Origin: Flavobacteriales bacterium
Lineage (GTDB): Bacteria > Bacteroidota > Bacteroidia > CAIKAF01
Assembly (NCBI GenBank): GCA_022402535.1
Contig: JAKRSD010000015.1
Coordinates: forward strand, 17,908 to 81,907
Length of the DNA: 64,000 bases
Direction: 5' to 3'
Part shown: in pieces, positions 33,872 to 48,240 of the stretch
Numbering within the stretch: the first letter of the stretch is position 1
Layout: each line of letters opens with the position of its first letter
The notes under the pieces: model-generated
What the model saw: the letters and a program-made list of their open reading frames with translations, nothing else
The model's database searches: none
What the model was told of the DNA's origin: nothing
Translations under genes and position numbers: made by a program

Positions 33872-34975
33872 TTAAGTTAATGAGTTCGTGCGCACGGGGC
33901 CTGTTCCGACAAAATCCCTAATGATGGAATTCGGTGGCAAAGATATGGAAATTTCGGTTTCCAAAAATTTGTCCACTTTTTCTGCTTCCGCCTCGGGGTA
34001 AAGTAGGTGTATATTGGGTCCGGCATCGAGTGTAAAACATACTCGGGTGCCGGTTTGTTTGCGGAATTCCCAAATTTTCTCGATAAATTCGAGGGTTTTG
34101 GGCCGCATGAGGATGAAATACGGATCGCTGGTCATCATCATGGCATGAAGCGTGAGCGCTTCGGTTTCCACAATCTTGCAGAAGGTGTCGAAATCGTTTG
34201 TTTTCATGGCGCTGAATAAATCCACGATGTTGCGGTTGGCCTGTTCAATACGGCTTTGTGCAAAGGGATTGGTATTCATGAGTGCATGACCGGCCCGGCT
34301 CGACACACTTTTTTCTCCCGGGTCGCAGATTATAACCGTATCGCGGTAAGTGAAAAATTCCGGATGAATGCCTTCCGTAAGCGGAGAACCGTACAAGTCA
34401 GACGTGTATTCGTAACCCGGAGCGTTTACCTTGCCCCAGCTCACCAGTCCGCCATAAACCGAGCGGCACGCGCTACCGGAGGCCAGGCGTGAGAGGTACG
34501 AGGCTTTTTGCCCGAACTCTTCGGGTGTTTGTAGGGTGCCGAACAGTTCTTTTTCCATTTCGCAGATACAGAGGCAGAGTGCGCTCATGGCCGAAGCCGA
34601 TGAGGCAATACCCGCTGAATGCGGAAAGGTATTGTGGGAATGGATGCTCAGTTTAAGTTGGCGAAGGTAGGGATGTGAATCGGCGATGCTTTCCAGAAAC
34701 TTTTCGATTTTGGCGGCAAAAAGGGGATTGGCTTTCTGTTCAAAATAGAAATCGACCTGTACTTTTCCGGTATCGGAATAGGCGTATTCCAGTACCGTTT
34801 CGGTGTGGCATGCGGAAAGTGTGAAGCTCACCGAAGGATTCATGGGAATCTGCACCTCGCGTTTACCCCAGTATTTTACCAGGGCAATATTGGAAGGACT
34901 GCGGAAAGTGATCTTTCCGGGAATACATTCGTGCGGCATGAGGCTGAGTGAAGCGGATGCTTGTAAATCCATCAT
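33872..34975 (-). CDS. mvaD: Diphosphomevalonate decarboxylase
   Basis: I start at 34975 (MMDLQASASLS) because the promoter -7 element at 35007-35000 lies between it and the upstream frame start at 35032. The protein has 367 residues. Signatures are SPSNIALVKYWGKRE (substrate-binding start), NPSVSFTLSAC, the ATP loop SHNTFPHSAGIASSASAMSAL, SRLASGSACRSVYGGLVSW with the decarboxylation Arg/Ser, and FTLDAGPNIHLL with the catalytic Asp. It converts mevalonate 5-diphosphate to isopentenyl diphosphate with ATP. It forms an operon with mevalonate kinase. Confidence 0.92.
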   Translation of the reverse strand: MMDLQASASLSLMPHECIPGKITFRSPSNIALVKYWGKREVQIPMNPSVSFTLSACHTETVLEYAYSDTGKVQVDFYFEQKANPLFAAKIEKFLESIADSHPYLRQLKLSIHSHNTFPHSAGIASSASAMSALCLCICEMEKELFGTLQTPEEFGQKASYLSRLASGSACRSVYGGLVSWGKVNAPGYEYTSDLYGSPLTEGIHPEFFTYRDTVIICDPGEKSVSSRAGHALMNTNPFAQSRIEQANRNIVDLFSAMKTNDFDTFCKIVETEALTLHAMMMTSDPYFILMRPKTLEFIEKIWEFRKQTGTRVCFTLDAGPNIHLLYPEAEAEKVDKFLETEISISLPPNSIIRDFVGTGPVRTNSLT

Positions 34976-34999
34976 ATAAGTACTCAACGTTTGGGGCGG

Positions 35000-35030
35000 C
35001 AAAGGTACGGAATTTTCGGGGTTTGGCAAC
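35000..35030 (-). promoter_or_regulatory. Leftward promoter for the mevalonate pathway pair
   Basis: On the minus strand: GTTG (35030-35027), a 19-bp spacer and TACCTTTG (35007-35000), close to TTTG-N19-TAnnTTTG. The predicted start of transcription is near 34994, 19 bp before the mvaD ATG. Confidence 0.7.
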
Positions 35031-35032
35031 AT

Positions 35033-35423
35033 ATTTCTTCAGGCGGTTGATTTTAGCGGGTTGACAGCTATTTTTAGATTTGAACTTATGATACCGTTGT
35101 TGCCTTTTTTGTTCGGTTTCCCTGCGCAATTCCGCAGGGATTTAGTATGTATAGGTCAGCATGAAATGCGGCCATTAGAGAAGTTGTTCAATTTTTGGCG
35201 ACTTAATCCCGAAGGGATTGAATATGCATAGCCCGCATGAAATGCGGTGCACAAAATGAGCAATTTACAACACAACCGCGGAGCGGTTGAATAATACTGA
35301 TGATACATTTAAAATGGGAGTCGAATTTCGATTTTATCTCATTGCCCTATTACCATTTTATATCGGCATTAGCCATTGTAAAATTTTGAAATAGATTGGT
35401 CTATTTCAAAATTACAATTGGTA
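35033..35423. repeat. Intergenic palindrome array
   Basis: A 391-bp gap between mvaD and the peptide-exporter adaptor gene. It holds five short palindromes: 35119-35140 (TCCCTGCG/CGCAGGGA), 35159-35169 (GCAT-gaa-ATGC), 35205-35219 (AATCCC-gaa-GGGATT), 35233-35247 (CCGCAT-gaa-ATGCGG) and 35273-35289 (CAACCGC-gga-GCGGTTG). Four of them have the same style of three-base centre, as in the array at 81-257. A separate AT-rich hairpin is at 35376-35417. No gene is supported here. Confidence 0.65.
35376..35417 (-). terminator. Long AT-rich hairpin after the RiPP operon
   Basis: ATTTTGAAATAGA-type arms form 14 bp of uninterrupted pairing around a TTGG loop, then a two-base bulge and four more pairs (TTGT/ACAA). 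It begins 7 bp after the stop of the adaptor gene in the direction of transcription. There is no strong U-run after it, so it may be a terminator of unusual kind or a 3-prime stabilising hairpin. Confidence 0.45.
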
Positions 35424-36707
35424 TTAAATCCGCTTACCGGTAAACAACAGCAAAAACCTGCGGGCCAGGGTGTACTCTTTTGTAAAAATGGTTGCCCGGG
35501 CCTGCATTTCCGGGGTAAACGGAATCTTTTTCCCTATATCGGTCTGTAAATCCGTATCCAGTTTAACTTTAATGCGGTAGGAACTGTCTTGTGGCAAATC
35601 AGAAATGAGCATCACCGTTCCGTTGAGGTAACCGTATTCTTCGGGCGGAAAAGAGGGTAATTCAATCTGAACACGGTTGCCCTTATTTATTTTTCCTATT
35701 CCTTCGGCTGGCAGGTTACCCGAGTAAATCAAATTTTCATATTCGGGGAGTATGTAAAACATGGGTTTATTGGGTTGAAAATGCCTGTTTACCTCTATGT
35801 TATTTCCTATGTAAAATAGTCTTCCCTCTTCTGGTGCCGATATCGAATAATTAAAATCAAGTTTGTTTTTAAAATCGCTTATGGCATAAATGGCGTTAAA
35901 AATATTTTCTTTTAAGGTTCTTTGTTTTTCATCTTCTTCAAATTCCAGTTCAATCTGTTGCTTCAGCATTGCTTCCAATTGAAGTTCAAGCGCGTTTATC
36001 TGCTCCTTGCCCGCTTCGAATGCCTTTCCTGCGGAAAGGAAATCTCCTTCGGCCTTTATAAAATCCATTTTTGAAATGGCTCCTTTTTCATACAGTTTTT
36101 TTTCTGTTTCAAATTTAAGGACAGCATTTTCATACTCTTTTTCGGTCAGTTTATTTTTCCTTTTTGAAACCGCTATATTCTGCTTAAGCAGCCATGCGGT
36201 AGCTTTTATGGATTGACTTCGTTTCTCAAATATTTTGGTGTCGTTCAGGGATTGAAGTTCTTTCCATGCCGAAACCATGCCGTAGTAGGTGTTGCTCAAA
36301 TCGCCCAGAATAAGTGTGGTATCGGGGTTTATGAAATAGAATTCGGGAAGTCCCGTTATATTTTCCTGAATCATTTTGGCTACCCGGCCCGCATAATCGA
36401 GGGCTGCCGTATCGGTTGTGTTTTTGAACGTTCCGATAATGTCTCCCTGTTTTACCTGTTCCCCATTTTTAACAGTCAGGGTTAATAATTCTCCCCCTGC
36501 ATTTGAGTTTAAAATGATCGGCGGGTTTTCGGGGCCTATATTCCCCGTGGAGTTCAGTTTGTCGGGGTAGCTGATAAACAAAGATATGCTTCCCAGCAGC
36601 AGGATAAACAAGGTAATGGTAATGCTTCCGTAAAGCACGAAGCCCCCGGGCGGCGAGGATAGAATTTCATCCAATTCTTCGGTACGGTTAGTATTCGGCA
36701 ACGGCAT
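35424..36707 (-). CDS. HlyD-family adaptor of the peptide exporter
   Basis: A 427-residue membrane-fusion protein of the bacteriocin-secretion type. One membrane helix near the N-terminus (about 25-47: VLYGSITITLFILLLGSISLFI) is followed by a lipoyl half-motif (NAGGELLTLTVKNGEQVKQGDIIG), a long coiled-coil hairpin (about 140-285), the second half (SAPEEGRLFYIGNNIEVNRHF) and a beta-barrel (NKGNRVQIELPSFPPEEYGYLNGTV). It should join the C39-peptidase ABC exporter to an outer-membrane channel. The gene starts 2 bp after the exporter gene and is the last of the operon that begins with the double-glycine precursor. Base composition resembles the core genome more than that of the precursor end. Confidence 0.9.
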   Translation of the reverse strand: MPLPNTNRTEELDEILSSPPGGFVLYGSITITLFILLLGSISLFISYPDKLNSTGNIGPENPPIILNSNAGGELLTLTVKNGEQVKQGDIIGTFKNTTDTAALDYAGRVAKMIQENITGLPEFYFINPDTTLILGDLSNTYYGMVSAWKELQSLNDTKIFEKRSQSIKATAWLLKQNIAVSKRKNKLTEKEYENAVLKFETEKKLYEKGAISKMDFIKAEGDFLSAGKAFEAGKEQINALELQLEAMLKQQIELEFEEDEKQRTLKENIFNAIYAISDFKNKLDFNYSISAPEEGRLFYIGNNIEVNRHFQPNKPMFYILPEYENLIYSGNLPAEGIGKINKGNRVQIELPSFPPEEYGYLNGTVMLISDLPQDSSYRIKVKLDTDLQTDIGKKIPFTPEMQARATIFTKEYTLARRFLLLFTGKRI

Positions 36708-36709
36708 TT

Positions 36710-38968
36710 TTAAGCTCCCAGTTCTAATTGGTTTTTAACTAAATTCCAGTAGGCCCCTTTTTGGTTTACCAACCCGGCGTGTGTGCCGGTTTCCATAATT
36801 TTCCCTTTTTCCAGTACCACAATCTGGTGGGCATTTTTAACGGTACTCAGCCGGTGGGCTATGATTACCACGGTTTTTCCCTGATAAAAATTTTCAAGGT
36901 TTTTACTGATTTCGTTTTCATTTTTTGCATCCAGCGCACTGGTGGCTTCGTCAAAAAACAAAAACAGGGGGTTTTTATACACGGCCCTCGCTATTAAAAT
37001 ACGTTGTTTTTGACCCGTGCTTAGCCCAATGCCCTCCCGGCCTATTTTGGTTTGGTAGGCCAGCGGTAATTGTTCTATAAACTCATTTATATTGGCCAGT
37101 TTGGCGGCTTCGGCCAGTTTGGCCGGATCCGGAGCATCTTCGCCGGGGGCAATGTTACCCGCTATCGTGTCCGAAAAAATATACCCTTCCTGCATTACGG
37201 TTCCGCAGCAGCTTCTCCAATACCCGTGCGGGATAAATTTCAGGTCGGTCGGACCCACTTTAATGCGTCCTTCGGTAGGTTCGTAAAACTGGAGCAGCAG
37301 TTTGAGCAACGTGGTTTTGCCGCTGCCGCTGGAGCCTACGATGGCCGTTATTTTTCCTTCGGGTATCTCCAAATCCAGGTTGTTCAGTACATTTTCGTTT
37401 CCGGCTCCCTCGTATCGGAATGATATGCCGGACAGCTGAATATTTTTACGTTCGGGCAGTGTTACGTGGTTTTCCGTCAGGCGGGGGTCTGTTTCGTCGG
37501 GTTTGTTTCTGATTTCATCCAGACGTTCCGCACTTATTTTGGCATCCTGATAGCCGCGCAGCAAATCTACCAACTGCAATACCGGCGCATTAAGCTGACC
37601 GGCAATATAGGAAACCGACAGCATCATGCCCAGGGTCATATCTCCTTTAATTACGGCCATGGCGGCGGCCACGGTGATGAGCATGTTCTTCAGTTCATTG
37701 ATGAGTCCGCTTCCGCTTTGCTGCCATTGATCTAGTTTCAGGCTTTGCAGGTTCAGGTTGAAAATTTTTACCTGTAATTTTTCCCATGCCCAGCGCAGGC
37801 TCAGTTCTGCATTATGCAGTTTTATTTCCTGCATGCCGTGTATCATTTCCACTACCTGGCTTTGGTTTGCACCCTGTTTGGCAAACCGCTTATAGTCCAG
37901 GTCGCGGCGTTTTTTCAAAAACAGGCTTATCCATAATGCATAGAGTAAACTGCCTGCCAAAAACAGAAAAAAGATGGGCGGGTGGTACACATACATTACC
38001 CCGCTCAGCACCAATAAATTTAGGAGAGAAAACGCCGTATTGAGTCCGGAGCCGGTTAAAAACTGCTCTATACGCTGTTGATCGCTTATGCGCTGCATGA
38101 TGTCGCCGGTGAGTTTAACATCAAAGTACGATGCCGGCAGCCGCATGAGTTTGGCAAAAAAATCGCTTACCATAGCCATGTTTACCCGGCTGCTTAGATG
38201 CATGAGCAGTTGCTGCCGTATAATGTCGAGCACGGTGCGGCCCGTAAATAACAAAAGCTGGGCCAGCAGTATAAGCCAAACAAAATGGATGTCGCGGTTG
38301 CGAATGCCGGTATCTACTATGCTCTGGGTAAGAAACGGCAGTGCCAGTTGTAGCAATGCGGCTCCGGCCAGCCCCGTTAAAATTTGAAGGGCTATTCTTT
38401 TATAGCGGAAAAAGTAGGGCAACAGCGCCCGTATTCCCTCGGATTTGCCGGGTATTTCTTCCGGGTTTGATTCTTCTTCGTGGGTGTAAAAGGCGGGTGT
38501 GGGTTCCAGCAGCAGCAATATTCCTTCGGGGCCTTCCGTGCCGTTTTCACCGGCCCAGTTTTGTATAAACTCTTCCCGGGTGTAGCTGAGCAGCCCGTGC
38601 CCCGGATCGGCCACGTGTACCCGGGTTCTGGGTTTGCCGAACAGGCGGTATGTAACCGAAATTTTGTATACTACCACAAAATGGTTTTGATTCCAGTGGG
38701 CAATGCAGGGCAAGAGAACCTCTTTTTTGAGCAGTACAAATGGCACTTTTACCCCTAGGCTGTGTAAGCCTATTTTTTCGGCGGCTTCGCTCATTCCCAA
38801 CATACTGGACCCCTGCCGGGTGGTTTGGCTCATGCGGCGCAGGTAAGGCAGCGAATAACTTTTACCGTAGTGTTTGGCCACCATGCGTATGCAGGTGGGA
38901 CCGCAGTCCATTATATCGGGTTGTTGGTAAAACGGAAAGGATATTTTTACGCTATTTCTTATTCCCAT
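36710..38968 (-). CDS. C39-peptidase ABC exporter (peptide processing and export)
   Basis: A 752-residue bifunctional exporter. Residues 10-150 are a C39 cysteine peptidase: Gln16 and Cys22 in QQPDIMDCGPTC, the His in IAHWNQNHFVVV and the Asp in VHVADPGHG are all present, so it should cut leaders after Gly-Gly. Membrane helices lie at about 195-455. The nucleotide-binding domain has GSSGSGKTT (Walker A), LSTGQKQRILIARA (signature), LFLFFDEATSALD (Walker B) and AHRLSTV. It overlaps the upstream TPR gene by 17 bp and lies 2 bp from the adaptor gene. The precursor at 41035-41247 has a matching double-glycine leader. Confidence 0.94.
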   Translation of the reverse strand: MGIRNSVKISFPFYQQPDIMDCGPTCIRMVAKHYGKSYSLPYLRRMSQTTRQGSSMLGMSEAAEKIGLHSLGVKVPFVLLKKEVLLPCIAHWNQNHFVVVYKISVTYRLFGKPRTRVHVADPGHGLLSYTREEFIQNWAGENGTEGPEGILLLLEPTPAFYTHEEESNPEEIPGKSEGIRALLPYFFRYKRIALQILTGLAGAALLQLALPFLTQSIVDTGIRNRDIHFVWLILLAQLLLFTGRTVLDIIRQQLLMHLSSRVNMAMVSDFFAKLMRLPASYFDVKLTGDIMQRISDQQRIEQFLTGSGLNTAFSLLNLLVLSGVMYVYHPPIFFLFLAGSLLYALWISLFLKKRRDLDYKRFAKQGANQSQVVEMIHGMQEIKLHNAELSLRWAWEKLQVKIFNLNLQSLKLDQWQQSGSGLINELKNMLITVAAAMAVIKGDMTLGMMLSVSYIAGQLNAPVLQLVDLLRGYQDAKISAERLDEIRNKPDETDPRLTENHVTLPERKNIQLSGISFRYEGAGNENVLNNLDLEIPEGKITAIVGSSGSGKTTLLKLLLQFYEPTEGRIKVGPTDLKFIPHGYWRSCCGTVMQEGYIFSDTIAGNIAPGEDAPDPAKLAEAAKLANINEFIEQLPLAYQTKIGREGIGLSTGQKQRILIARAVYKNPLFLFFDEATSALDAKNENEISKNLENFYQGKTVVIIAHRLSTVKNAHQIVVLEKGKIMETGTHAGLVNQKGAYWNLVKNQLELGA

Positions 38969-39791
38969 TTACTAACATTTCGTAATATTTTTTTTTTGAT
39001 TTATCTGCTAAACAGGTTTTTCCTTCTAAATAATTTAAAGCTAAAGTGAAAAATTGTGTTTTGATATTGTCAGGAATAGGATTTTTTTCAATTAAACTTT
39101 CATTTTCTAAAAAAATTTTTAAAGCAATTTCTTTAAAATAATCATTGTCAATTACCTTTTCTAAAAGGTAATTATTATATTGTATAATTCGATCGTCATT
39201 GCCTGATTTATACCAAATGTTATTTGCTTTCGTTATGTATGCTATGGTTGAATCTAAATTTTTGTTTTTTTCATAAGATATTGCTAAGTCAAAATAGCAA
39301 ACAGCGACTCCTTGATCAAACTCATTATTTTTAAAAATCTCTATAGCCATGTATATATGTGATTTTGCTTCCTCTATATTACTTTTTAATCCCCATATCA
39401 TACCTTCAAATTTCAACATATTTGCTTTTTTTAAATCATTTCCTGATAAGTGATACTTTTCAACTGACAAGTCGGCATAATAAACTGCACTATCAAGATT
39501 GTTTAGTTTTTCAAAGAAGATGAATGAAATATTTTGATGACATATTCCTACGTTTTCTAAATTTTCAAAATTGTTCCCAAAGTATAAGATAGCCTTTTTG
39601 AAATAATGTAGTGATGAATCGGGAGATATAAAATAATATTTTTCTCCGTCTCTTAGATATTCTTTTGCTTCAATAATGCTATCCTTAGATTCAATTATGC
39701 TTGAATTATAATTAGTTGTTTGGCAATGCGCAGCAATTGCGGTTTTTGATAGAAATATAGTAATGTAAACTATTTTTGCTATATTATTCAT
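38952..39791 (-). CDS. Secreted TPR-like protein in the graspetide operon
   Basis: A 279-residue protein of unknown function. Residues 1-24 form a signal peptide (KIVYITIFLSKTAIAAHC before Q), so it acts outside the cytoplasm; an alternative reading of the Cys as a lipid anchor is weak. The rest consists of helix-turn-helix repeats resembling tetratricopeptides (SSLHYFKKAILYFGN, NLDSAVYYADLSVEKY, EEAKSHIYMAIEIFKNN, GVAVCYFDLAISYEKNKNLD, STIAYITKANNIW). It overlaps the ligase gene by 8 bp and the exporter gene by 17 bp, so it is translationally embedded in the operon. It is strongly AT-rich. It might be an immunity, receptor or assembly factor; nothing in the sequence decides this. Confidence 0.8.
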   Translation of the reverse strand: MNNIAKIVYITIFLSKTAIAAHCQTTNYNSSIIESKDSIIEAKEYLRDGEKYYFISPDSSLHYFKKAILYFGNNFENLENVGICHQNISFIFFEKLNNLDSAVYYADLSVEKYHLSGNDLKKANMLKFEGMIWGLKSNIEEAKSHIYMAIEIFKNNEFDQGVAVCYFDLAISYEKNKNLDSTIAYITKANNIWYKSGNDDRIIQYNNYLLEKVIDNDYFKEIALKIFLENESLIEKNPIPDNIKTQFFTLALNYLEGKTCLADKSKKKYYEMLVNGNKK

Positions 39792-40977
39792 ATTTATCTA
39801 CTTTTAGTTTACTTATTTCCATTATAATTTCTTTTGTTATATCTAATCCAATGAAAGGGGCTAGCCAATAGTGGGCTCCAGGTCGATTTAATTCTAAAAA
39901 ATAATACTCTGAATTTTTACTTAAAATCAAATCTACACTACACCAAGTTAAATTTAATTCCTTGCATATATTAATTAATTTTGAATTAATATTTTCAGGA
40001 AGTTTAATGAGCTCCCATTTTACATTTGAATCATCATGGACTCTCCAATCATCTTTTGCTAGTTCTGAGTCTTGCGAATATATTTTACATCCAAATACCC
40101 TTTCAAATAAGACAATTGCCCGAATTTCATATTCTTTTTCTATATATTCTTGGAAACAGCACGGTGAATTTTTTAATTTGGATAAATTCATGCTGTTCAA
40201 ATCAATTTTTATAGGAGGAAATGAGAAAGGAGGTGTTGAAAATTCTCTTAGTAAAACATGGCTGTGTTTTTTCGCAAAATTCTTTGCTTCTCCGATTTTG
40301 TTAGTTAGGATAGTTTCTGGCACATTAAATCCTATTTTTTTTGCAAGATTCAATTCACTTATTTTATCCTGCCACTCTTGAGAGCCAACAAAAGGATTAC
40401 CAGGGATCCAAATAGCATCCTTTCTTATAAACTTAGATATCTCTTTTAACGATTGTTTCCAACGCTTTTTAAATAAAAATTTATTTCGGCCTTTAAACTG
40501 AGGAATCATCTCGAAATCGACTAGAGGAAATGGATATTTTGGAGTATTCCATATCACTATCGAAACATCATCAAGATCTAAATAAACGTCATCAACATTT
40601 AGTATAGATTTTGTTTCATTATCATTTATTATGAATTTTATCTCACCTTCAAATATAAAGCGTACAAAATCAATAAAAAAGAATTTTAGATTATTGTTTT
40701 TTAATTGATTGATTATGCCATAGCTAAGGTTGCCAATTGCAAACACGAGTACAATGTTCTGCTTTTTATCACTTGGCTCATAATTAGTTATAATAGTATA
40801 ATCAACTTCTTTTTTTTCTTTTTCAACTTCTTGTACTATGTTTTTTATTTTCTTAGGATCATGAGGCTTCCATGTCCATTTCTCTGGATTTGACTTGTTT
40901 TCAACTTGTTTTTTCAGTAATTCGGGTACTTTTTTGCTTAATTCAGCCAGTCCAAAAACGTAATATTCTTTCTCCAT
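39784..40977 (-). CDS. ATP-grasp peptide ligase, graspetide (MvdC/MvdD/GwsG-like) type
   Basis: A 397-residue ligase. The C-terminal two thirds match ATP-grasp macrocyclases that form omega-ester or omega-amide links: NPFVGSQEWQDKISELNLAKK, GFNVPETILTNK, HVLLREFSTPPF, CFQEYIEKEYEIRAIV, DWRVHD (Arg312) and YFLELNRPGAHYW. Asp349, Glu362 and Asn364 are the expected Mg/ATP ligands. Known enzymes join Thr/Ser or Lys side chains to Asp/Glu of a precursor, using ATP. The N-terminal ~110 residues are unfamiliar (WTWKPHDPKKIKNIVQ). It is AT-rich, starts 57 bp after the precursor stop and overlaps the TPR gene. No radical-SAM SPASM partner lies nearby, unlike grasp-with-spasm loci. Confidence 0.85.
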   Translation of the reverse strand: MEKEYYVFGLAELSKKVPELLKKQVENKSNPEKWTWKPHDPKKIKNIVQEVEKEKKEVDYTIITNYEPSDKKQNIVLVFAIGNLSYGIINQLKNNNLKFFFIDFVRFIFEGEIKFIINDNETKSILNVDDVYLDLDDVSIVIWNTPKYPFPLVDFEMIPQFKGRNKFLFKKRWKQSLKEISKFIRKDAIWIPGNPFVGSQEWQDKISELNLAKKIGFNVPETILTNKIGEAKNFAKKHSHVLLREFSTPPFSFPPIKIDLNSMNLSKLKNSPCCFQEYIEKEYEIRAIVLFERVFGCKIYSQDSELAKDDWRVHDDSNVKWELIKLPENINSKLINICKELNLTWCSVDLILSKNSEYYFLELNRPGAHYWLAPFIGLDITKEIIMEISKLKVDKYE

Positions 40978-40998
40978 TTTGTCTTAATAATTTATTTA

Positions 40999-41030
40999 GG
41001 GGGCATGTACCTCTCAAGGCACATGCCCTC
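40999..41030 (-). promoter_or_regulatory. Stem-loop between precursor and ligase genes
   Basis: GGGCATGT (41001-41008) pairs with ACATGCCC (41021-41028); after an A-C mismatch CCT pairs with AGG around a CTCA loop, and one wobble plus one G-C pair extend the base. On the minus strand it lies 5 nt after the precursor stop codon and is followed by CCTAAATAAATT, not a U-run. It looks like a leaky terminator or an mRNA-stabilising hairpin that keeps precursor message in excess of enzyme message. Confidence 0.6.
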
Positions 41031-41034
41031 ATTT

Positions 41035-41247
41035 TTATCTTTCTGTATCAGTGGTAGTACCACCAGATGCAAGTTCACTTGTAACATCCTGATTGTCAGA
41101 TCCAGTATTGTCAGTATCAGTGGTTGTTCCACCAGATGCTAATTCGCTTGTAACATCCTGACTGTCATTAGAACCACCTGGTCTTGATCCTCCAATTAGA
41201 GACGATAGTTTGCTTGTAGATAAGCTCTTAACTTTTTTAATTTTCAT
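41035..41247 (-). CDS. Candidate graspetide precursor with double-glycine leader and two core repeats
   Basis: A 70-residue peptide. The leader (1-20) is basic and ends LSSLIGG, a double-glycine site for the C39 peptidase of the operon. The core (21-70) is rich in Thr, Ser, Asp, Glu and Gly. The 16-residue unit QDVTSELASGGTTTDT occurs at 30-45 and 53-68 without any residue change, with a period of 23 residues. Thr/Ser hydroxyls as donors and Asp/Glu carboxyls as acceptors would suit the adjacent ATP-grasp ligase. There is no Cys, and no Lys after the leader, so ester rather than amide or thioether links are expected. It lacks the microviridin TxRxPSDxDE and PFFARFL motifs. Start and frame were checked codon by codon. 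Confidence 0.85.
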   Translation of the reverse strand: MKIKKVKSLSTSKLSSLIGGSRPGGSNDSQDVTSELASGGTTTDTDNTGSDNQDVTSELASGGTTTDTER

Positions 41248-41361
41248 TTTATGAATAATTTTGAAACAGCCTTTTTAATATTCCGTTGGCTTTTAATTAC
41301 GTACCATTTAAACCAGACTCACGTGCGCCTAGCCCTTATGTTAGCCATAAATTTCGAACTT

Positions 41362-41403
41362 TTTGGTTACATTTCCGTTCACTTTGGCGAAGTGTTAACC
41401 AAA
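41362..41403. promoter_or_regulatory. Candidate operator dyads for the XRE regulator
   Basis: An inner dyad CACTT-tggcg-AAGTG (41380-41394) spans the predicted start of transcription of the precursor operon. An outer inverted repeat TTTGGTTA (41362-41369) / TAACCAAA (41396-41403) overlaps the -7 box. It lies in the divergent gap between the precursor and XRE genes, so the XRE protein is the likely ligand (inference). Confidence 0.5.
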
Positions 41404-41432
41404 TTTATATTGTTTAGCATTTGTTTTCCAAA
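41400..41432 (-). promoter_or_regulatory. Promoter of the RiPP operon
   Basis: On the minus strand: TTTG (41432-41429), a 21-bp spacer and TAAATTTG (41407-41400). Transcription would start near 41394, leaving an unusually long 5-prime leader of about 145 nt before the precursor ATG. Confidence 0.65.
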
Positions 41433-41483
41433 ACTTTAAGCCTGTAAATTATTGAAAAATTCCGATATTTTATCAATATCATA

Positions 41484-41491
41484 TACTTTTG
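41484..41491 (+). promoter_or_regulatory. Promoter -7 element for the XRE regulator
   Basis: TACTTTTG directly upstream of an AAGGAG ribosome-binding site (41498-41503) and the ATG at 41509. The 5-prime leader would be only about 10-12 nt. No matching -33 TTTG was found. The strong Shine-Dalgarno sequence, unusual in this phylum, decides the start codon. Confidence 0.5.
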
Positions 41492-41508
41492 GTAAAAAAG
41501 GAGTGCTT

Positions 41509-41868
41509 ATGTACGGAAGCAAAATTGCCAGTATTAGAAAGGCCAGAGGCCTTAAACAAGGGGAAGTAGCCGAAAAATTGGGTATGAGTCAGGCTTCTTA
41601 CTCGGATATTGAGAACAATAATCGCAAATACCTGGATGAAGCCCTTATTGAAAAAATTGCCGAGGCTTTGGGTGTAAAAACGGAAGATATCAAAAGCCAA
41701 AGCCCCATAGTCATGAATTTTCATGAAAGCCCGAACAGTAACGGATATCAAACAAATCAAAATGATTCAAGGGTAATTGATGCGCTGCTTGATCAGTTGA
41801 GGGTAAAAGATGAACAATTGGCTGCCAAGGATGAAATTATAAAAAGGCTTTTAGATTCAAAAAGCTGA
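41509..41868 (+). CDS. XRE-family regulator with C-terminal coiled coil
   Basis: A 119-residue regulator. The start at 41509 follows AAGGAG by 5 nt; the frame upstream to a TTG at 41452 is rejected. Residues 5-58 are a Cro/C1-type helix-turn-helix (IASIRKARGLKQGEVAEKLG, MSQASYSDIENNNRKY, IEKIAEALGV). After a Ser/Asn-rich linker, residues 85-119 form a short heptad-like coiled coil (VIDALLDQLRVKDEQLAAKD), likely for dimerisation. This architecture is common beside phage and RiPP genes in Bacteroidota. It is divergent from the precursor gene with dyads in the shared gap and probably controls that operon. Confidence 0.85.
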   Translation: MYGSKIASIRKARGLKQGEVAEKLGMSQASYSDIENNNRKYLDEALIEKIAEALGVKTEDIKSQSPIVMNFHESPNSNGYQTNQNDSRVIDALLDQLRVKDEQLAAKDEIIKRLLDSKS

Positions 41869-41886
41869 TTGAATACGTTTGTTACA

Positions 41887-42023
41887 TTTCACCCCGCGTG
41901 AGGGATGGAAGCGGATAGCCCGCAATGCAGCGAAGCGGAATGAGGACTTGCAGCGGACAGCCCGGCCCGGAGGGACACGCCCCAATGCAGCGCTTTAAGC
42001 ACCCGGTTGATTTGCGGGTTTTT
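41887..42023 (+). ncRNA. Candidate structured RNA or conserved intergenic element
   Basis: A GC-rich block unlike its flanks. Two related units, GGAAGCGGATAGCCCG (41907-41922) and GCAGCGGACAGCCCG (41950-41964), lie between GCGTG (41896-41900) and CACGC (41976-41980), which could form a closing helix. It ends with a small hairpin ACCCG/CGGGT (42001-42019) and TTTT, like a weak terminator. The block lies upstream of the predicted amidophosphoribosyltransferase transcription start, so it is not that gene's leader. It resembles intergenic sequence I associate with other Bacteroidota, but I cannot name a family. Confidence 0.35.
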
Positions 42024-42038
42024 GAGCCGGAAAAATAG

Positions 42039-42046
42039 TACCTTTG
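42039..42046 (+). promoter_or_regulatory. Promoter -7 element for amidophosphoribosyltransferase
   Basis: TACCTTTG, 17 bp before the ATG at 42064. TTTG copies at 42011 and 42021 give spacers of 24 and 14 bp, neither ideal. Confidence 0.6.
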
Positions 42047-42063
42047 CGCTTCCATTCTGAACA

Positions 42064-43965
42064 ATGAGCGACCAAATAAAACACGAGTGCGGAATTGCCT
42101 TTCTGCGTCTCTTAAAACCGCTGGAATTTTACCGTCAGAAGTACGGTACTCCACTTTACGGCCTGAACAAAATGTACCTCCTGATGGAGAAACAGCATAA
42201 CCGGGGTCAAGACGGCGCCGGAATTGCCAACATTAAGTTTGACCCCGAACCGGGTCACCGTTTCATCAGCCGCTCACGATCCATTGCCCAAACGCCCATC
42301 AAAGATTTGTTTGAACGAATCAGCAGCCGCGTGAATGAGGCCCGCCGTGCCGATAAGGACATTTTATACAATATTCCCAAACTGAAACGCGAAGTGCCTT
42401 TTGCCGGGGAGCTCTATCTGGGGCATCTGCGCTATGGCACTTACGGACGAAACAGCATTGAAAGCTGCCACCCGTTTTTGCGGCAGAACAACCGCATGAC
42501 CCAAAACCTGATTGTGGCCGGGAACTTTAACCTCACCAATGTGGATGAGCTTTTTGATGAGCTGATAGAACTGGGTCAGCATCCGAAAGAGAAGGCCGAC
42601 ACGGTTACGGTGATGGAAAAAATCGGTCACTTCTTGGATAAGGAAAATGAAAAACTGTATCGCGAATACCGCGATGCGGGTATTGACAGAAAAGAGGCGG
42701 TGGAAAAAATTGCTGAAAATCTGGATATTGAAACCATTCTGAAAAAAGCCACCGAACGCTTTGACGGTGGATATGTGATGTCAGGGTTAATGGGACATGG
42801 CGACGGTTTTGTGTTGCGCGATCCTAATGGAATCCGCCCTGCGTATTACTACCACGATGATGAAATTGCGGTGGTATGTTCAGAAAGGGCGGTGATACAG
42901 ACCGTGTTCAACGTGGCTTATGAAGGTATTCACGAACTGCCTCCGGGTCATGCCTTTATTGTGAAGAAAAGCGGGAAAATTTCCATTTCTGATATTTTGA
43001 ATCCGGCCGAGCGGAAAGCCTGTTCTTTTGAACGAATTTATTTTTCGAGGGGCAGTGATGCCGAAATATACAGTGAGCGTAAAGAATTGGGGAATTTGGT
43101 AGTGCCGCAGATTTTGAACAAAATTGAACATGATCTGGACAATACGGTTTTCTCCTTTATTCCCAATACGGCCGAAACCGCCTTTTACGGTATGCTGAAA
43201 GGGGTAGAAAACTACCTGAATACGCTGAAAGCCGATAAAATTAAAGCCTTAGGAAATACATTTACGGCGGAACAGATAACCGAAATTTTGGCCGAAAGAC
43301 CCCGGGTGGAAAAACTGGCCATTAAAGACGTAAAACTGCGCACGTTTATTACTGATGATGAACACCGCGACGACATGGTAACCCACGTATATGATATCAC
43401 CTACGGAACCGTAAAACCGGGTACGGATAATGTGGTGGTGATTGACGACAGTATTGTGCGCGGTACCACACTCAAAAAGAGTATCATCCGGATGCTTGAC
43501 CGGTTAAATCCGAAGCATATCGTAATTGTTTCTTCTGCTCCGCAAATCCGATATCCCGACTGCTACGGTATTGATATGGCCAAAATTCAGGATTTTATTG
43601 CCTTTAAAGCGGCCACGGCCCTGTTGGAAGAACGTGGATTATGGCATGTGATTACGGATGCCTACACCGAAGCCAAAGAACTGGAAAAACAAGGGCTTTT
43701 GCACACGAAAAACTGCGCAAAACAGATATACGCGCCCTTTACCGATGAAGAAATTTCGGATAAAATTGCGGAGTTGGTATCGCCGCCCGATATAAAATCT
43801 AAGGTATCGGTGGTGTATCAGTCGGTGGATAATCTTCACAAGGCGTGTCCGCTGAATTTAGGCGATTGGTATTTTACGGGTGATTATCCCACACCAGGAG
43901 GCATGCGGGTGAGTAACAGGGCGCTCATCAATTTTGTGGAAGGTAAAAATGCCCGTGCCTACTAA
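42064..43965 (+). CDS. Amidophosphoribosyltransferase-family protein (PurF-like)
   Basis: A 633-residue class II glutamine amidotransferase fused to a phosphoribosyltransferase. Cys9 in HECGIAF is the likely N-terminal nucleophile after propeptide removal; QHNRGQDGAGIA, YLGHLRYGTYG and DPNGIRPAYYY follow. The PRPP loop is VVVIDDSIVRGTTLKKS (about 455-471), and ISSAPQIRYPDCYGIDM-type sequence follows. It would make 5-phosphoribosylamine, the first step of purine synthesis. It is longer than E. coli PurF (about 505 residues) by extra segments between the two glutaminase halves (about 140-230) and at the C-terminus, as in a Bacteroidota subgroup that may coexist with a canonical PurF, so I leave the symbol empty. 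Confidence 0.85.
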   Translation: MSDQIKHECGIAFLRLLKPLEFYRQKYGTPLYGLNKMYLLMEKQHNRGQDGAGIANIKFDPEPGHRFISRSRSIAQTPIKDLFERISSRVNEARRADKDILYNIPKLKREVPFAGELYLGHLRYGTYGRNSIESCHPFLRQNNRMTQNLIVAGNFNLTNVDELFDELIELGQHPKEKADTVTVMEKIGHFLDKENEKLYREYRDAGIDRKEAVEKIAENLDIETILKKATERFDGGYVMSGLMGHGDGFVLRDPNGIRPAYYYHDDEIAVVCSERAVIQTVFNVAYEGIHELPPGHAFIVKKSGKISISDILNPAERKACSFERIYFSRGSDAEIYSERKELGNLVVPQILNKIEHDLDNTVFSFIPNTAETAFYGMLKGVENYLNTLKADKIKALGNTFTAEQITEILAERPRVEKLAIKDVKLRTFITDDEHRDDMVTHVYDITYGTVKPGTDNVVVIDDSIVRGTTLKKSIIRMLDRLNPKHIVIVSSAPQIRYPDCYGIDMAKIQDFIAFKAATALLEERGLWHVITDAYTEAKELEKQGLLHTKNCAKQIYAPFTDEEISDKIAELVSPPDIKSKVSVVYQSVDNLHKACPLNLGDWYFTGDYPTPGGMRVSNRALINFVEGKNARAY

Positions 43966-43975
43966 ATAAAGCAAC

Positions 43976-44572
43976 ATGTCCACAGAAAAAACGGATACCT
44001 ATATTGCGAAGTCAGCTCCTTTTGCCCGGCCGGTTTTAGCCCATTTTCGCCACCTGGTTCACAGTGTTTGTGCCGATGCGGAAGAAACCCTGAAATGGGG
44101 ATTTCCCCATTTTATTAAGGACGGCAAAGTGATCTGTTATATGGCTGCATTCAAACAACATTGTGCCATAGGATTTCGCAATGCAGAATTAATGCCCGAT
44201 CCCGAAGGCATTCTGCATAAAGTGGGCGAATCAGGTATGGGCAGTCTGGGAAAAATTACCGGATTGCAGGATTTACCTCCCGATGTGATATTGAAGAAAT
44301 ATATAGCCGAAGCGGTAGAAGTGAATCATCTTTCGGTTCCTAAAAAGAAAACAGTGTCCACGGCTGTAGAAATTCCTGCTGACTTCGCGGAAGCAATTGC
44401 GGCGAAAACAGAAGCTAAAGCTCAATTTGATAAATTCAGTAATTCGCACCGAAAAGAATATGTGGAATGGATAATGGAAGCCAAACGCGAAGAAACCCGA
44501 AGAAACCGGATTGCCCAGGCTGTGGAATGGATTGCTGAAGGCAAATCCAGAAACTGGAAGTATATGAAATAA
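43976..44572 (+). CDS. YdeI/OmpD-associated-type protein (DUF1801 plus C-terminal helical domain)
   Basis: A 198-residue cytoplasmic protein. Residues 15-115 are a DUF1801/YdhG-like domain (FARPVLAHFRHLVHSVC, EETLKWGFPHFIKDGKVICYMAAFKQHCAIGF). The C-terminal part has the YdeI/OmpD-associated signature: IPADFAEAIAAKTEAKAQFD, FSNSHRKEYVEWIMEAKREETR and RIAQAVEWIAEGKSRNWKY. Function is unknown; homologues are common small stress or housekeeping proteins in soil and aquatic bacteria. It follows the amidophosphoribosyltransferase gene by 10 bp and may be co-transcribed. Confidence 0.85.
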   Translation: MSTEKTDTYIAKSAPFARPVLAHFRHLVHSVCADAEETLKWGFPHFIKDGKVICYMAAFKQHCAIGFRNAELMPDPEGILHKVGESGMGSLGKITGLQDLPPDVILKKYIAEAVEVNHLSVPKKKTVSTAVEIPADFAEAIAAKTEAKAQFDKFSNSHRKEYVEWIMEAKREETRRNRIAQAVEWIAEGKSRNWKYMK

Positions 44573-44632
44573 CCTGAAAATCCATTAAGCAATGGTTTGG
44601 GTGGTTTGAATTTTCTTTCATTAAACTGTTAG

Positions 44633-45886
44633 ATGATTATGCATGTAGAGAAAACAACTTTATCTAATGGATTGCGCGTTATTGTGCATCCGGATAAAAA
44701 TACGGCACTTAGTGTGGTAAATGTGTTATACGATGTAGGTGCCCGCGACGAAAATCCGCATCGCACCGGTTTTGCCCACCTGTTTGAACACCTGATGTTT
44801 GAAGGCACTCAAAACGTGAAACATTTTGACCGGCATGTGCAGGATGCAGGCGGAACCAATAATGCCTTCACCAGCAACGACATTACCAATTATTATATCT
44901 CGCTTCCGGCAGGAAATACCGAAACCGGCTTGTGGCTCGAAGCCGACCGTATGGGTTTTCTGGATATCACGCAGGAAAAACTGGATATTCAGAAAAAAGT
45001 GGTGATTGAAGAGTTTAAAGAACGATACCTGAACCAGCCATACGGTGATGTATGGGCAGAACTCCGGAAACTGGCGTATACGGTGCATCCGTATCAATGG
45101 CCCACCATAGGTAAAAATACGGATCATGTAGCCGAAGCTACTTTGGAAGAAGTACAGGCTTTTCACCGGAAATTTTATAATCCGTGCAATGCCGTGTTAT
45201 GTGTAGCCGGAAATGTAAATCCCGAGGAGGTGTTTCAAATGACTGAAAAGTGGTTTGGTGCACTGCCCGGAGGGGAAAAATATGTACGAAATCTGCCTCA
45301 GGAGCCGGAACAGACCGTTGCCCGAAAACACGAAGTGCTAAGGCCCGTGCCGCAGGATCTATTTATGTTGGCCTTTCCCTGTCCGGCCTATCTGGCTCCC
45401 GGCTATGCCGAGTTGGATTTAGCTTCAGATATTTTAGGCGGTGGCGAAAGTTCACGGTTATATCAGGCATTAATTGTGAAAAAACGAATATTTACCCAAG
45501 TAGGCGCTTATGTGCTGGGTTCGTTAGACAGAGGCCTGCTGGTTATCTCCGGAAGACTAATGCCGGGCGTTACATTTGAAAAGGCAGAAAAAGCCGTTTG
45601 GGAAGAATTAGACCGTTTACAATCTGCGGGAACCGACCTGCGCGAACTGGAAAAAATCCGGAATAAAATGTTGACAGGGCGTGCTTTTGAAAATGACAGC
45701 ATCATGAACAAAGCCACCAAACTCTGCGCTTTTGAACTGCTGGGCGATGCCAATATGATTACCCGGGAAGAAGCCTTTTACGCGGCGGTAACCCCCGATT
45801 CGCTTCGCGAAAACTTATCGCAGATCGTTCCCGAAAAATCAACCACATTGTACTACAAATCCCAAAATGGATATGAAACCAATTAA
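44633..45886 (+). CDS. M16-family zinc metallopeptidase (catalytic partner)
   Basis: A 417-residue peptidase of the pitrilysin family; a second ATG at 44639 could also serve as start. The inverted zinc site HLFEHLMFEG (HxxEH) lies at about residues 49-58 with the third ligand in KKVVIEEFKERY. GGTNNAFTSNDITNYYISLP and HPYQWPTIGKNTDHV are typical. The second half has the R/Y substrate-anchoring region (LGGGESSRLYQALIVKKRI). No signal peptide is seen. The gene overlaps the next M16 gene by 20 bp, and the two should form a heterodimer like mitochondrial processing peptidase. Confidence 0.9.
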   Translation: MIMHVEKTTLSNGLRVIVHPDKNTALSVVNVLYDVGARDENPHRTGFAHLFEHLMFEGTQNVKHFDRHVQDAGGTNNAFTSNDITNYYISLPAGNTETGLWLEADRMGFLDITQEKLDIQKKVVIEEFKERYLNQPYGDVWAELRKLAYTVHPYQWPTIGKNTDHVAEATLEEVQAFHRKFYNPCNAVLCVAGNVNPEEVFQMTEKWFGALPGGEKYVRNLPQEPEQTVARKHEVLRPVPQDLFMLAFPCPAYLAPGYAELDLASDILGGGESSRLYQALIVKKRIFTQVGAYVLGSLDRGLLVISGRLMPGVTFEKAEKAVWEELDRLQSAGTDLRELEKIRNKMLTGRAFENDSIMNKATKLCAFELLGDANMITREEAFYAAVTPDSLRENLSQIVPEKSTTLYYKSQNGYETN

Positions 45887-47144
45887 TTTTGTAGAAGGCC
45901 CGGAAAAACGTGCATTTGCCATTCCGGAATTTGTACATCCCAATATGTTTACGCTGGATAACGGAATCGAAGTATATTCCGTGTTATCTGAAGAAACCGA
46001 AACCCTGAAAATAGAATGGGTGTTTGAAGCGGGTTCTGTTTTTGCCGAAAAAGTAATGCAGAGTGCAGCCTGTGCCGAATTAATCAATAAAGGAACGTTC
46101 ACGCGAAACGGGTTTGAACTCATTGAATCGTTGGAATATTATGGTTCCTACTTTTCGGCGGATTCAGGCAGAGATGAACTGACCATGCGATTGTTCACCA
46201 TGCGTCGTTTTTTGCCGGATGTATTACCCATAGTGGCTGAGATGATGCTGGAAGCGGCTTATCCGCAGCATGAATTTGAGGTGTGGCTCGATGCCCGTAA
46301 AAGTGCGTATGAAATCAATCGTAAAAAAACAGACTATCTGGCTTCTTCCCGTTTTCCCGGGGTATTGTTTGGCGAAGATTCGGGTTATGGAAAATATGTA
46401 AAGCCAGAGCATTTTACGCAGCTCTCGGCCAATGATGCCCTGGTTTTTCACAAAAAAGTATTGGCTTCTCCCTGCCGCATGTATGTGAGCGGAAATGTCC
46501 CCGCCGGATGGGAATCGCTGCTGAATTCCTTATTTGGCAGTTTAATCCGCGACGAACGAATTCCCGTTGAAGCATTTGCCAGTAAACATAATCCACCGCA
46601 GGAATTATTTCTTCCCGTGGACGATTCGGTGCAGCATTCCCTCATTATAGGTCGAAGACTTTGGGTGCGGAATGTGGAAGAATATGTACCGCTCATGATT
46701 ATGAATACCGCATTGGGCGGGTATTTCGGAAGCCGTCTGATGGCCAATCTCCGGGAAAAAAATGGCTTCACCTACGGTGTGGGGTCGGGTGTGGCCCGGT
46801 TATATTTTTCGGATATGTTTAAAATCAGTACCGATGTGGGTGCCGAAGTTTCTGAACAAGCCCGGAAGGAAATTTTTCATGAAATAGATGTACTCCAAAA
46901 TGAGTTATTGTCTGAAGAGGAACTGCAGCGGGTGAAAACCTATATCAACGGGTCTTTCTTGCGTTCGTTTGATGGTCCGCAGGCCATTATGGACCGGTAT
47001 AAAAGTTTAATACAATATAATCTGCCCCTTACTTTTTTTAGCCGTTATGTAGAGGGAATTAAAGGAGTAACTGCAGAACAGGTCCGCGAAAGCGCACAGA
47101 AACACCTTACGGGTTTGAGCACCGTGGTGGCAGGGAAAAAATAA
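45867..47144 (+). CDS. M16-family protein (non-catalytic partner)
   Basis: A 425-residue M16 homologue lacking the HxxEH zinc site: the equivalent position reads CAELINKGT. It keeps the family fold (TLDNGIEVYSVL, SYFSADSGRDELTMRLFTM) and the C-terminal R/Y pair region (ALGGYFGSRLMANLREKNGFTYGVGSG), which anchors substrate in heterodimeric M16 enzymes. It should be the regulatory, substrate-binding subunit of the preceding peptidase, whose gene overlaps it by 20 bp. The pair is usual in Bacteroidota; the substrates are unknown. Confidence 0.9.
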   Translation: MDMKPINFVEGPEKRAFAIPEFVHPNMFTLDNGIEVYSVLSEETETLKIEWVFEAGSVFAEKVMQSAACAELINKGTFTRNGFELIESLEYYGSYFSADSGRDELTMRLFTMRRFLPDVLPIVAEMMLEAAYPQHEFEVWLDARKSAYEINRKKTDYLASSRFPGVLFGEDSGYGKYVKPEHFTQLSANDALVFHKKVLASPCRMYVSGNVPAGWESLLNSLFGSLIRDERIPVEAFASKHNPPQELFLPVDDSVQHSLIIGRRLWVRNVEEYVPLMIMNTALGGYFGSRLMANLREKNGFTYGVGSGVARLYFSDMFKISTDVGAEVSEQARKEIFHEIDVLQNELLSEEELQRVKTYINGSFLRSFDGPQAIMDRYKSLIQYNLPLTFFSRYVEGIKGVTAEQVRESAQKHLTGLSTVVAGKK

Positions 47145-47176
47145 CCCTGTCCATTCAGTAGCGGTATTTAAACCAT

Positions 47177-47184
47177 TACCTTTG
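47177..47184 (+). promoter_or_regulatory. Promoter -7 element for the aldo/keto reductase
   Basis: TACCTTTG, 66 bp before the ATG at 47251. This position argues against the in-frame start at 47182, which would lie inside the element. Confidence 0.6.
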
Positions 47185-47250
47185 CACATTGTTGGTATGC
47201 GGGCGGGGTCATTGACCTTCGCCCCGAACTTGTTTAAAAAAATAGAGAAT

Positions 47251-48240
47251 ATGGAATATAAAAATTTGGGCCGTTCGGGCCTTAAGGTAAGCCGCCTTTC
47301 CTTGGGTTCTTGGGTTACATTCGGAAATCAGATCGGCGATGATGTAGCCGAACAGCTTATGGTGAAAGCGTATGATGCAGGAGTTAATTTTTTCGATAAT
47401 GCCGAAGTGTATGCTAATGGAAAATCGGAGGAAGTGATGGGTTCCATTTTGAAAAAAATGGGATGGAGCCGCGATACGTTTGTGGTGTCCAGCAAAGTGT
47501 TCTGGGGCGGAAAATTACCCAATCAATATGGACTGAGCCGTAAACATGTTACCGAAGCCTGTCATGCCGCACTCAAAAGGTTACAGGTAGATTATCTGGA
47601 TTTGTTTTTTTGCCACAGGGCCGATATTGAAACCCCGCTCGAAGAAACGGTTTTTGCCATGAATGATCTTATTCGTCAGGGTAAAATTTTATACTGGGGA
47701 ACCAGTGAATGGGATGCCCAGCGTATTACGGAAGCCATCGGCATTGCCAAGGAAAATCATTTGGTTCCGCCCGTTATGGAGCAGCCTCAATATAACATGT
47801 TTCACCGCGACCGGTTTGAGTTGGAATACCGTAATCTGTATAAAAATTTTGGTTACGGAACCACCATCTGGTCTCCGCTGGCTTCGGGTATGCTCACCGG
47901 AAAATATAACCACGGACTTCCTGCTGATACCCGTGCGCATTTACCCGAACTGACCTGGCTCAAAGAACGATTCTCGGGACCGGAAGGCGAAGAAATGGTG
48001 CGCAAAGTACAGGCGCTTCAACAAATTGCCGATGAACTGGGAACCTCTCTGCCTAAACTGGCCATTGCCTGGTGCCTCAAAAATCCGAATGTAAGCACGG
48101 TAATTCTGGGCGCATCCAAAGTATATCAGCTGGAAGAAAATCTGGCGGCATTAGAAGTGGTGGAACAACTCAACGAAGAACTCATGCAGCGCATAGAAAC
48201 TATTTTGAATAATCGCCCCAAATTTCCGGTTTACGGATAA
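47251..48240 (+). CDS. Aldo/keto reductase (potassium-channel beta-subunit-like)
   Basis: A 329-residue TIM-barrel oxidoreductase starting MEYKNLGRSGLKVSRLSLG. The catalytic tetrad is visible as FDNAEVYANGKSE (Asp and Tyr), VVSSKVFWGGKL (Lys) and LFFCHRADIETPLEE (His). WSPLASGMLTGKY and VILGASKVYQLEENL bind NADPH. The sequence is of the Kv-beta/YghZ type, which reduces aldehydes and ketones such as methylglyoxal. It is transcribed from the -7 element at 47177-47184 and ends 9 bp before the mfd start, so mfd could be expressed from the same transcript. Confidence 0.9.
   Translation: MEYKNLGRSGLKVSRLSLGSWVTFGNQIGDDVAEQLMVKAYDAGVNFFDNAEVYANGKSEEVMGSILKKMGWSRDTFVVSSKVFWGGKLPNQYGLSRKHVTEACHAALKRLQVDYLDLFFCHRADIETPLEETVFAMNDLIRQGKILYWGTSEWDAQRITEAIGIAKENHLVPPVMEQPQYNMFHRDRFELEYRNLYKNFGYGTTIWSPLASGMLTGKYNHGLPADTRAHLPELTWLKERFSGPEGEEMVRKVQALQQIADELGTSLPKLAIAWCLKNPNVSTVILGASKVYQLEENLAALEVVEQLNEELMQRIETILNNRPKFPVYG

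Follow-up and report, generated by a model that had tools for sequence, protein, structure and literature searches.

Identical cores in a small precursor

A 70 aa open reading frame that spells the same 16 residues twice in different codons raises the question of what keeps the peptide so constant, and of how an enzyme encoded beside it might recognize its substrate. The frame lies on the minus strand of the 64,000 nt stretch of Flavobacteriales DNA that was analysed (hereafter, the window), and its features are as follows.

41035-41247, minus strand: gene for a 70 aa precursor peptide, present once in the genome, with homologues at loci L004, L032 and L038
41188-41247, minus strand: C39-type double-glycine leader, residues 1-20, ending LSTSKLSSLIGG, assigned by pattern and found in four of four homologous precursors
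41113-41160, minus strand: core copy 1, residues 30-45, from translation and homologue comparison
41044-41091, minus strand: core copy 2, residues 53-68, from translation and homologue comparison
41111-41167, minus strand: DNA repeat copy 1, 57 nt, 88% identical to copy 2
41042-41098, minus strand: DNA repeat copy 2

The sequence QDVTSELASGGTTTDT occupies residues 30-45 and again residues 53-68, with 16/16 identity. The codons of the two copies differ at 6 of 48 bases, in five codons (Ser AGC/AGT, Leu TTA/CTT, Gly GGA/GGT, Thr ACA/ACT and Thr ACT/ACA), and every change is synonymous, exactly as the original prediction from the letters of this DNA had described. Beneath the cores lies a direct DNA repeat of 57 nt with 88% identity and a spacing of 69 nt. 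When six random substitutions were placed in the core 48-mer, the peptide stayed intact in 0.0135% of 200,000 trials; when the same 16 residues were encoded twice independently with the codon usage of the operon, the encodings differed by a mean of 12.3 bases, and by six or fewer in 0.8% of 20,000 trials. Both chance values are low, so the two cores are of common descent and were subsequently kept at the protein level. Site counting gave six differences over 12.5 synonymous sites and none over 35.5 non-synonymous sites, supporting a duplication followed by strong purifying selection, which is the old duplication under selection on the peptide that had been proposed. In itself, the duplication is modest and local.

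A family of four loci

The gene next to the precursor encodes an ATP-grasp ligase, and homologues of the precursor were sought through this enzyme. A class-wide sample of 395 genomes held 22 with a ligase match at E 1e-14, the source genome included, and two of the others were near relatives: G702, a Vicingaceae metagenome-assembled genome (MAG) (locus L004, ligase 55% identical over residues 5-390), and G511 (locus L032, 56% over residues 166-386, plus a separate N-terminal piece). A ligase profile run against genome contigs gave nine loci from 97 pattern matches, among them a fourth family member, L038, from a Chitinophagaceae MAG, as well as L037 and L039, which repeat L004 and L032. A first contig scan with the single ligase protein had confirmed none of 49 pattern matches. 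The family therefore stands at four loci, including L032 with a broken ligase gene and L038, which is cut by a contig end. At L032 (1-2067) the ligase gene is in two pieces on opposite strands at a contig edge, and the N-terminal piece runs into stops; this is either a broken gene or an assembly fault. Separately, L045:8001-8108 holds a 36-residue stretch 56% identical to the ligase, inside a 49-residue open frame, which is perhaps a remnant of a fifth family member.

A phylum-wide sample of 395 genomes gave three matches at 1e-30, namely the source genome and two distant ones, and the family and order searches, which covered the same 16 genomes, matched the source genome alone. No ligase relative was found in 45 other genomes from the family of G702 or in five from that of G511 (both at E 1e-30), nor in 323 from that of G762 (E 1e-40). 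A viral origin was rejected, with no relative on viral contigs (0 of 9 pattern matches for the single protein, 0 of 212 for the profile), as was a plasmid origin, with none of 38 plasmid records returned by tblastn covering 80% of the ligase.

At all four loci the small ORF directly upstream of the ligase is a precursor of 58-70 aa. A chance open frame, which the original prediction had held to be very unlikely, is ruled out by the homologues with a like leader and core that adjoin homologous ATP-grasp ligases at three Bacteroidota loci in other genomes. Several precursors in the source genome were likewise ruled out, as a genome search with the precursor returned the gene at 41035-41247 alone, its two matches being the two repeats. 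The five core copies agree at 10 of 16 positions (D31, S34, E35, G39, G40, T41, T42, T43, D44 and T45); T or Y stands at position 33, S or C at position 38, and the flanks vary. Free drift of the repeats among homologues, named beforehand as the observation that would count against the claim, is thus not what we see, and on these alignments selection acts on the core within the source genome as well as across genomes. Each repeat has three invariant carboxylates and five invariant hydroxyls, so it could carry more than one link. The single ring per repeat that had been proposed is therefore one possible pattern among others, the donors and acceptors being too many for the connectivity to be predicted by eye from the sequence. 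The predicted multi-core character holds for the window precursor, which has two cores where a multi-core graspetide has at least two, but not as a trait of the family, since the three homologues have one core each; the duplication is therefore particular to the source genome among the four.

A probable graspetide-type operon

The gene order in the window is precursor, RNA hairpin, ATP-grasp ligase, TPR protein, C39 peptidase/ABC exporter and HlyD adaptor.

41001-41028, minus strand: RNA hairpin between the precursor and ligase genes, -22.0 kcal/mol, z -6.7
39784-40977, minus strand: ATP-grasp ligase, 397 aa, from sequence, domain and fold matches
38952-39791, minus strand: TPR protein with an apparent N-terminal signal sequence (by eye) and a homologue at the equivalent place in L004
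36710-38968, minus strand: ABC transporter with a C39 peptidase domain, from domain scans, putatively for GG cleavage and export
35424-36707, minus strand: HlyD-type periplasmic adaptor, from domain scans

L004 matches this order from precursor through ligase and TPR protein to C39 ABC exporter; the TPR proteins of the two loci are 28% identical, and their C39 domains 64% identical over a 95-residue stretch. A strong hairpin stands between precursor and ligase at four of four loci (L004, -24.5 kcal/mol, z -6.3; L032, -25.8, z -6.0; L038, -18.2, z -5.4), and the hairpin sequences are unrelated. The hairpin is probably an attenuator or processing signal, and would suit an element that keeps the precursor in excess over the enzyme. 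With the hairpin taken into account, M21 is also the likelier start of the L004 ligase, which takes away a 20-residue over-extension. Within 38952-41247, GC content is 0.385 in the precursor, 0.293 in the ligase and 0.258 in the TPR gene, against 0.488 in the C39 transporter, and L004 has a similar contrast (0.333, 0.288 and 0.222 against 0.437), which points to transfer of the module or to another kind of constraint. A divergent XRE-type HTH gene adjoins the operon (41452-41868, plus strand), and a similarly sized HTH gene lies ahead of the ligase at L034:6415-6810.

The top NCBIfam matches of the ligase were MvdD/MvdC (E 6e-35), at scores far below the curated equivalog cut-offs (TIGR04184, 121 against 475; TIGR04185, 120.6 against 425). 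Five PDB entries matched its sequence at E 0.01, all RiPP ATP-grasp ligases with CdnC first, and its predicted fold aligned to nine entries of graspetide-synthetase type at Z 25.8-23.2, against 20.2 for RimK. The window ligase retains 14 positions at which 28 aligned ligase rows hardly vary. Sequence and model together place residues of about 71-394 with CdnC, MdnC, AMdnB, PsnB and PruB, and the closeness to MdnC, AMdnB, CdnC and PsnB bears out the graspetide-type setting that had been suggested for the peptide. The operon thus has an MdnC/PsnB-type ATP-grasp ligase and a short adjacent precursor with a conserved core of Ser/Thr and Asp/Glu, and on sequence and predicted fold its graspetide reading is well founded.

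That the ATP-grasp enzyme adds amino acids in the manner of RimK, or makes some other amide in place of side-chain rings, is improbable. The Pfam RimK model does score above its cut-off for the ligase (24.2 against 21) and RimK folds come next in the structural ranking at Z 20.2, but the graspetide synthetases exceed them by 3 to 5 Z units, the PDB sequence matches at E 0.01 comprise RiPP ATP-grasp ligases only, and a core rich in invariant Ser/Thr and Asp/Glu speaks against such an activity. We give still less credence to the view that the GG inside each repeat (ASGG, followed by TTTDT) is an extra C39 site, from which several short peptides would result in place of one product with two modified cores. 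Although both repeats carry the GG, and Bacteroidetes precursors with several GG motifs have been described (in PMC8939145), the hydrophobic residues of the repeats do not, by eye, line up with the C39 consensus, which the true leader does follow. The GG is moreover invariant within the single-copy core of the three homologues, so cleavage there would split a conserved unit.

A leader-like extension on the ligase

Graspetide leaders can carry a ligase-recognition motif, Phhx(1,2)h, which is described in PMC8939145 as present in about half of precursors and so is not class-defining. All four family precursors have leaders that fit the C39 double-glycine pattern, and none of these four precursors contains Trp, WxWxP or Phhx(1,2)h. 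The ligase model, in turn, aligns only from residue 63-75 to the very start of graspetide-synthetase chains, so that in the fold alignment about 70 residues lie ahead of the first residue of the solved MdnC and CdnC.

40768-40977, minus strand: ligase N-terminal extension, residues 1-70, candidate fused leader and linker, in four of four members
40837-40896, minus strand: leader-like motif, ligase residues 28-47, KSNPEKWTWKPHDPKKIKNI

The extension is present in all four family members, with 22 invariant columns, and is most conserved at KxPELL, NK and P..WTWxP..PxKIKNI; the other ligases compared with the family begin at the pre-ATP-grasp domain. Neither the precursors nor the extension matched a Pfam or NCBIfam model above its cut-off. 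At two further loci, L034 (genome G221) and L063 (G456), a ligase without the extension adjoins a 66 aa precursor (L034:8041-8241 and L063:7128-7328) that starts with MKVF and contains KWNWEP. Alignment of the extensions with the leaders of these stand-alone WxWxP precursors by hhalign gave a probability of 86% (E 5e-6, 20 columns, 40% identity). Among 601 ORFs of 30-150 aa from 28 extension-free loci, an HMM of the extension ranked the L034 and L063 precursors first and second, a ranking that is not blind, because L063 had been picked beforehand by motif search, and whose E-values are modest (0.016 and 0.042, with the third ORF at 0.35). The reciprocal model of the stand-alone leaders ranked the four extensions 1-4. 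In genome-wide use the profiles were silent: that of the extension found no stand-alone leader at E 0.05 in 395 phylum genomes, a draw that very probably included G221 (G221 is in the matching phylum draw), and that of the stand-alone leaders found no extension at E 0.01.

Across the six loci the two traits exclude each other, four having the extension with a C39 precursor leader and two a WxWxP leader with a bare enzyme; neither of the two WxWxP precursors has a C39 motif. In the ligase tree the four family enzymes form one clade (100/100, stem 2.14), which joins the WxWxP ligases only within a weak group (60/82). Homology of the short motif, which covers 20 columns and was noticed after the fact, is suggestive. 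In these comparisons the family precursor has no recognizable ligase-binding leader, and it is the ligase that carries a leader-like segment, which we read as a leader transferred from substrate to enzyme.

Loci outside the family also revealed other precursors. The L034/L063 type forms a separate graspetide-like family, with leader MKVFA...KWNWEP...KKIYASG and core KTxTRxSTYASEKDNExDxDRPNEGA, and its sequences, from genomes of two different bacterial families, share 67% identity. Another type adjoins extension-free ligases in Flavobacteriales MAGs (L040:1386-1571 and L043:7639-7824), where MSKKYKITLEVEEGQETTIKPLGETM is followed by a Thr-rich stretch and a DxDTDM end. At L033:6510-6857, a 115 aa precursor-like ORF with repeated Thr-rich blocks and then EP.D.D lies beside a 314 aa ligase.

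How the ligase may find its substrate

We consider it probable that the locus is a graspetide-type RiPP operon in which the recognition leader has moved onto the ligase and the N-terminus of the precursor is left for export cleavage. The ligase would join Asp/Glu to Ser/Thr side chains inside each core, D.(T/Y)SE..(S/C)GGTTTDT, a pattern in which position 32 and others are free and T33 and S38 are not invariant, and the duplicated core would let one precursor offer two identical substrates. Activation would come in cis from the leader fused to the enzyme's own N-terminus (about residues 1-47, joined through some 25 linker residues to the domain that begins at about 71) and not from a precursor leader. 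With the leader on the ligase, the precursor N-terminus would therefore be free to act as a plain C39 leader, cleaved after LIGG during export.

Alternatively, the ligase might recognize the precursor's own N-terminus (MKxxKK..LS..EL..I.GG), with the extension, as a segment peculiar to this family, serving an unrelated role such as stability or oligomerisation and resembling WxWxP by chance or through a shared docking mode. That leader is conserved in four of four homologues, but its conserved residues are those of the C39 consensus, and export alone explains them. The absence of Phhx(1,2)h is nothing special, because branch-5 Bacteroidetes precursors also lack it in the account of Makarova et al. 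(PMC8939145). In two AlphaFold models, built on four covering sequences only, the extension had pLDDT block means of 31-64 over residues 1-60. Such low confidence in both models would suit ordinary leader use; it also means that docking of the extension was not placed, and the models say nothing either way. Against this alternative, the model of the extension and that of the stand-alone leaders each place the other's sequences at the top of about 600 ORFs, and we regard it as unlikely.

Known systems and significance

A leader on a graspetide ligase has a precedent in the laboratory, where MvdD and MvdC with a fused leader and a 30-residue linker are reported to be constitutively active on core peptides (PMC9826346; restated in PMC13003496). 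The window ligase resembles these LP-MvdD and LP-MvdC constructs in having a leader, here a candidate one, N-terminal to the enzyme through a linker (30 aa there, about 25 here). As those reports describe them, the constructs are man-made and carry a microviridin leader, whereas the window ligase is natural, has a WxWxP motif, is paired with a C39-leader precursor and has a predicted activity. No natural leader-ligase fusion in graspetides was found in searches of the open-licence PMC literature, and the arrangement seems so far to be known only from engineering.

Repeated cores served by one ATP-grasp ligase are shared with the microviridin AMdnA, reported to have three cores and one ligase (PMC5934393), and with the system of the chryseoviridin ligase CdnC (PDB 7mgv). 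Precursors of both are described as carrying a recognized leader, unlike the window precursor, and their core sequences differ. GG-leader precursors without Phhx(1,2)h are also described for the branch-5, grasp-with-SPASM graspetides of Bacteroidetes (PMC8939145), but in that account a SPASM enzyme, and in most cases also a small LPL protein, is encoded at branch-5 loci. The grasp-with-SPASM model TIGR04192 scored 76.9 for the ligase against a cut-off of 230, and none of the ten window proteins scanned (within 33872-48240, minus 45867-47144) had a radical SAM match.

We lean slightly towards a natural family of graspetide ligases that carry an activating leader of their own in cis, and whose precursor, freed from recognition by the ligase, has taken on a leader for C39 export alone and was able to duplicate its core. 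It is the leader-like extension, with the clear and cheap prediction that it makes, that raises the interest of this case. As a RiPP leader is normally part of the substrate, a leader-carrying ligase, if true, would show an evolutionary loss of leader dependence. The enzyme would then be predicted to act on short leader-free cores and might be a ready-made natural tool for peptide cyclisation, while rules that find precursors by seeking a recognition motif in the peptide would fail on such a family. If so, nature would have made a leader-fused ligase before engineers did.
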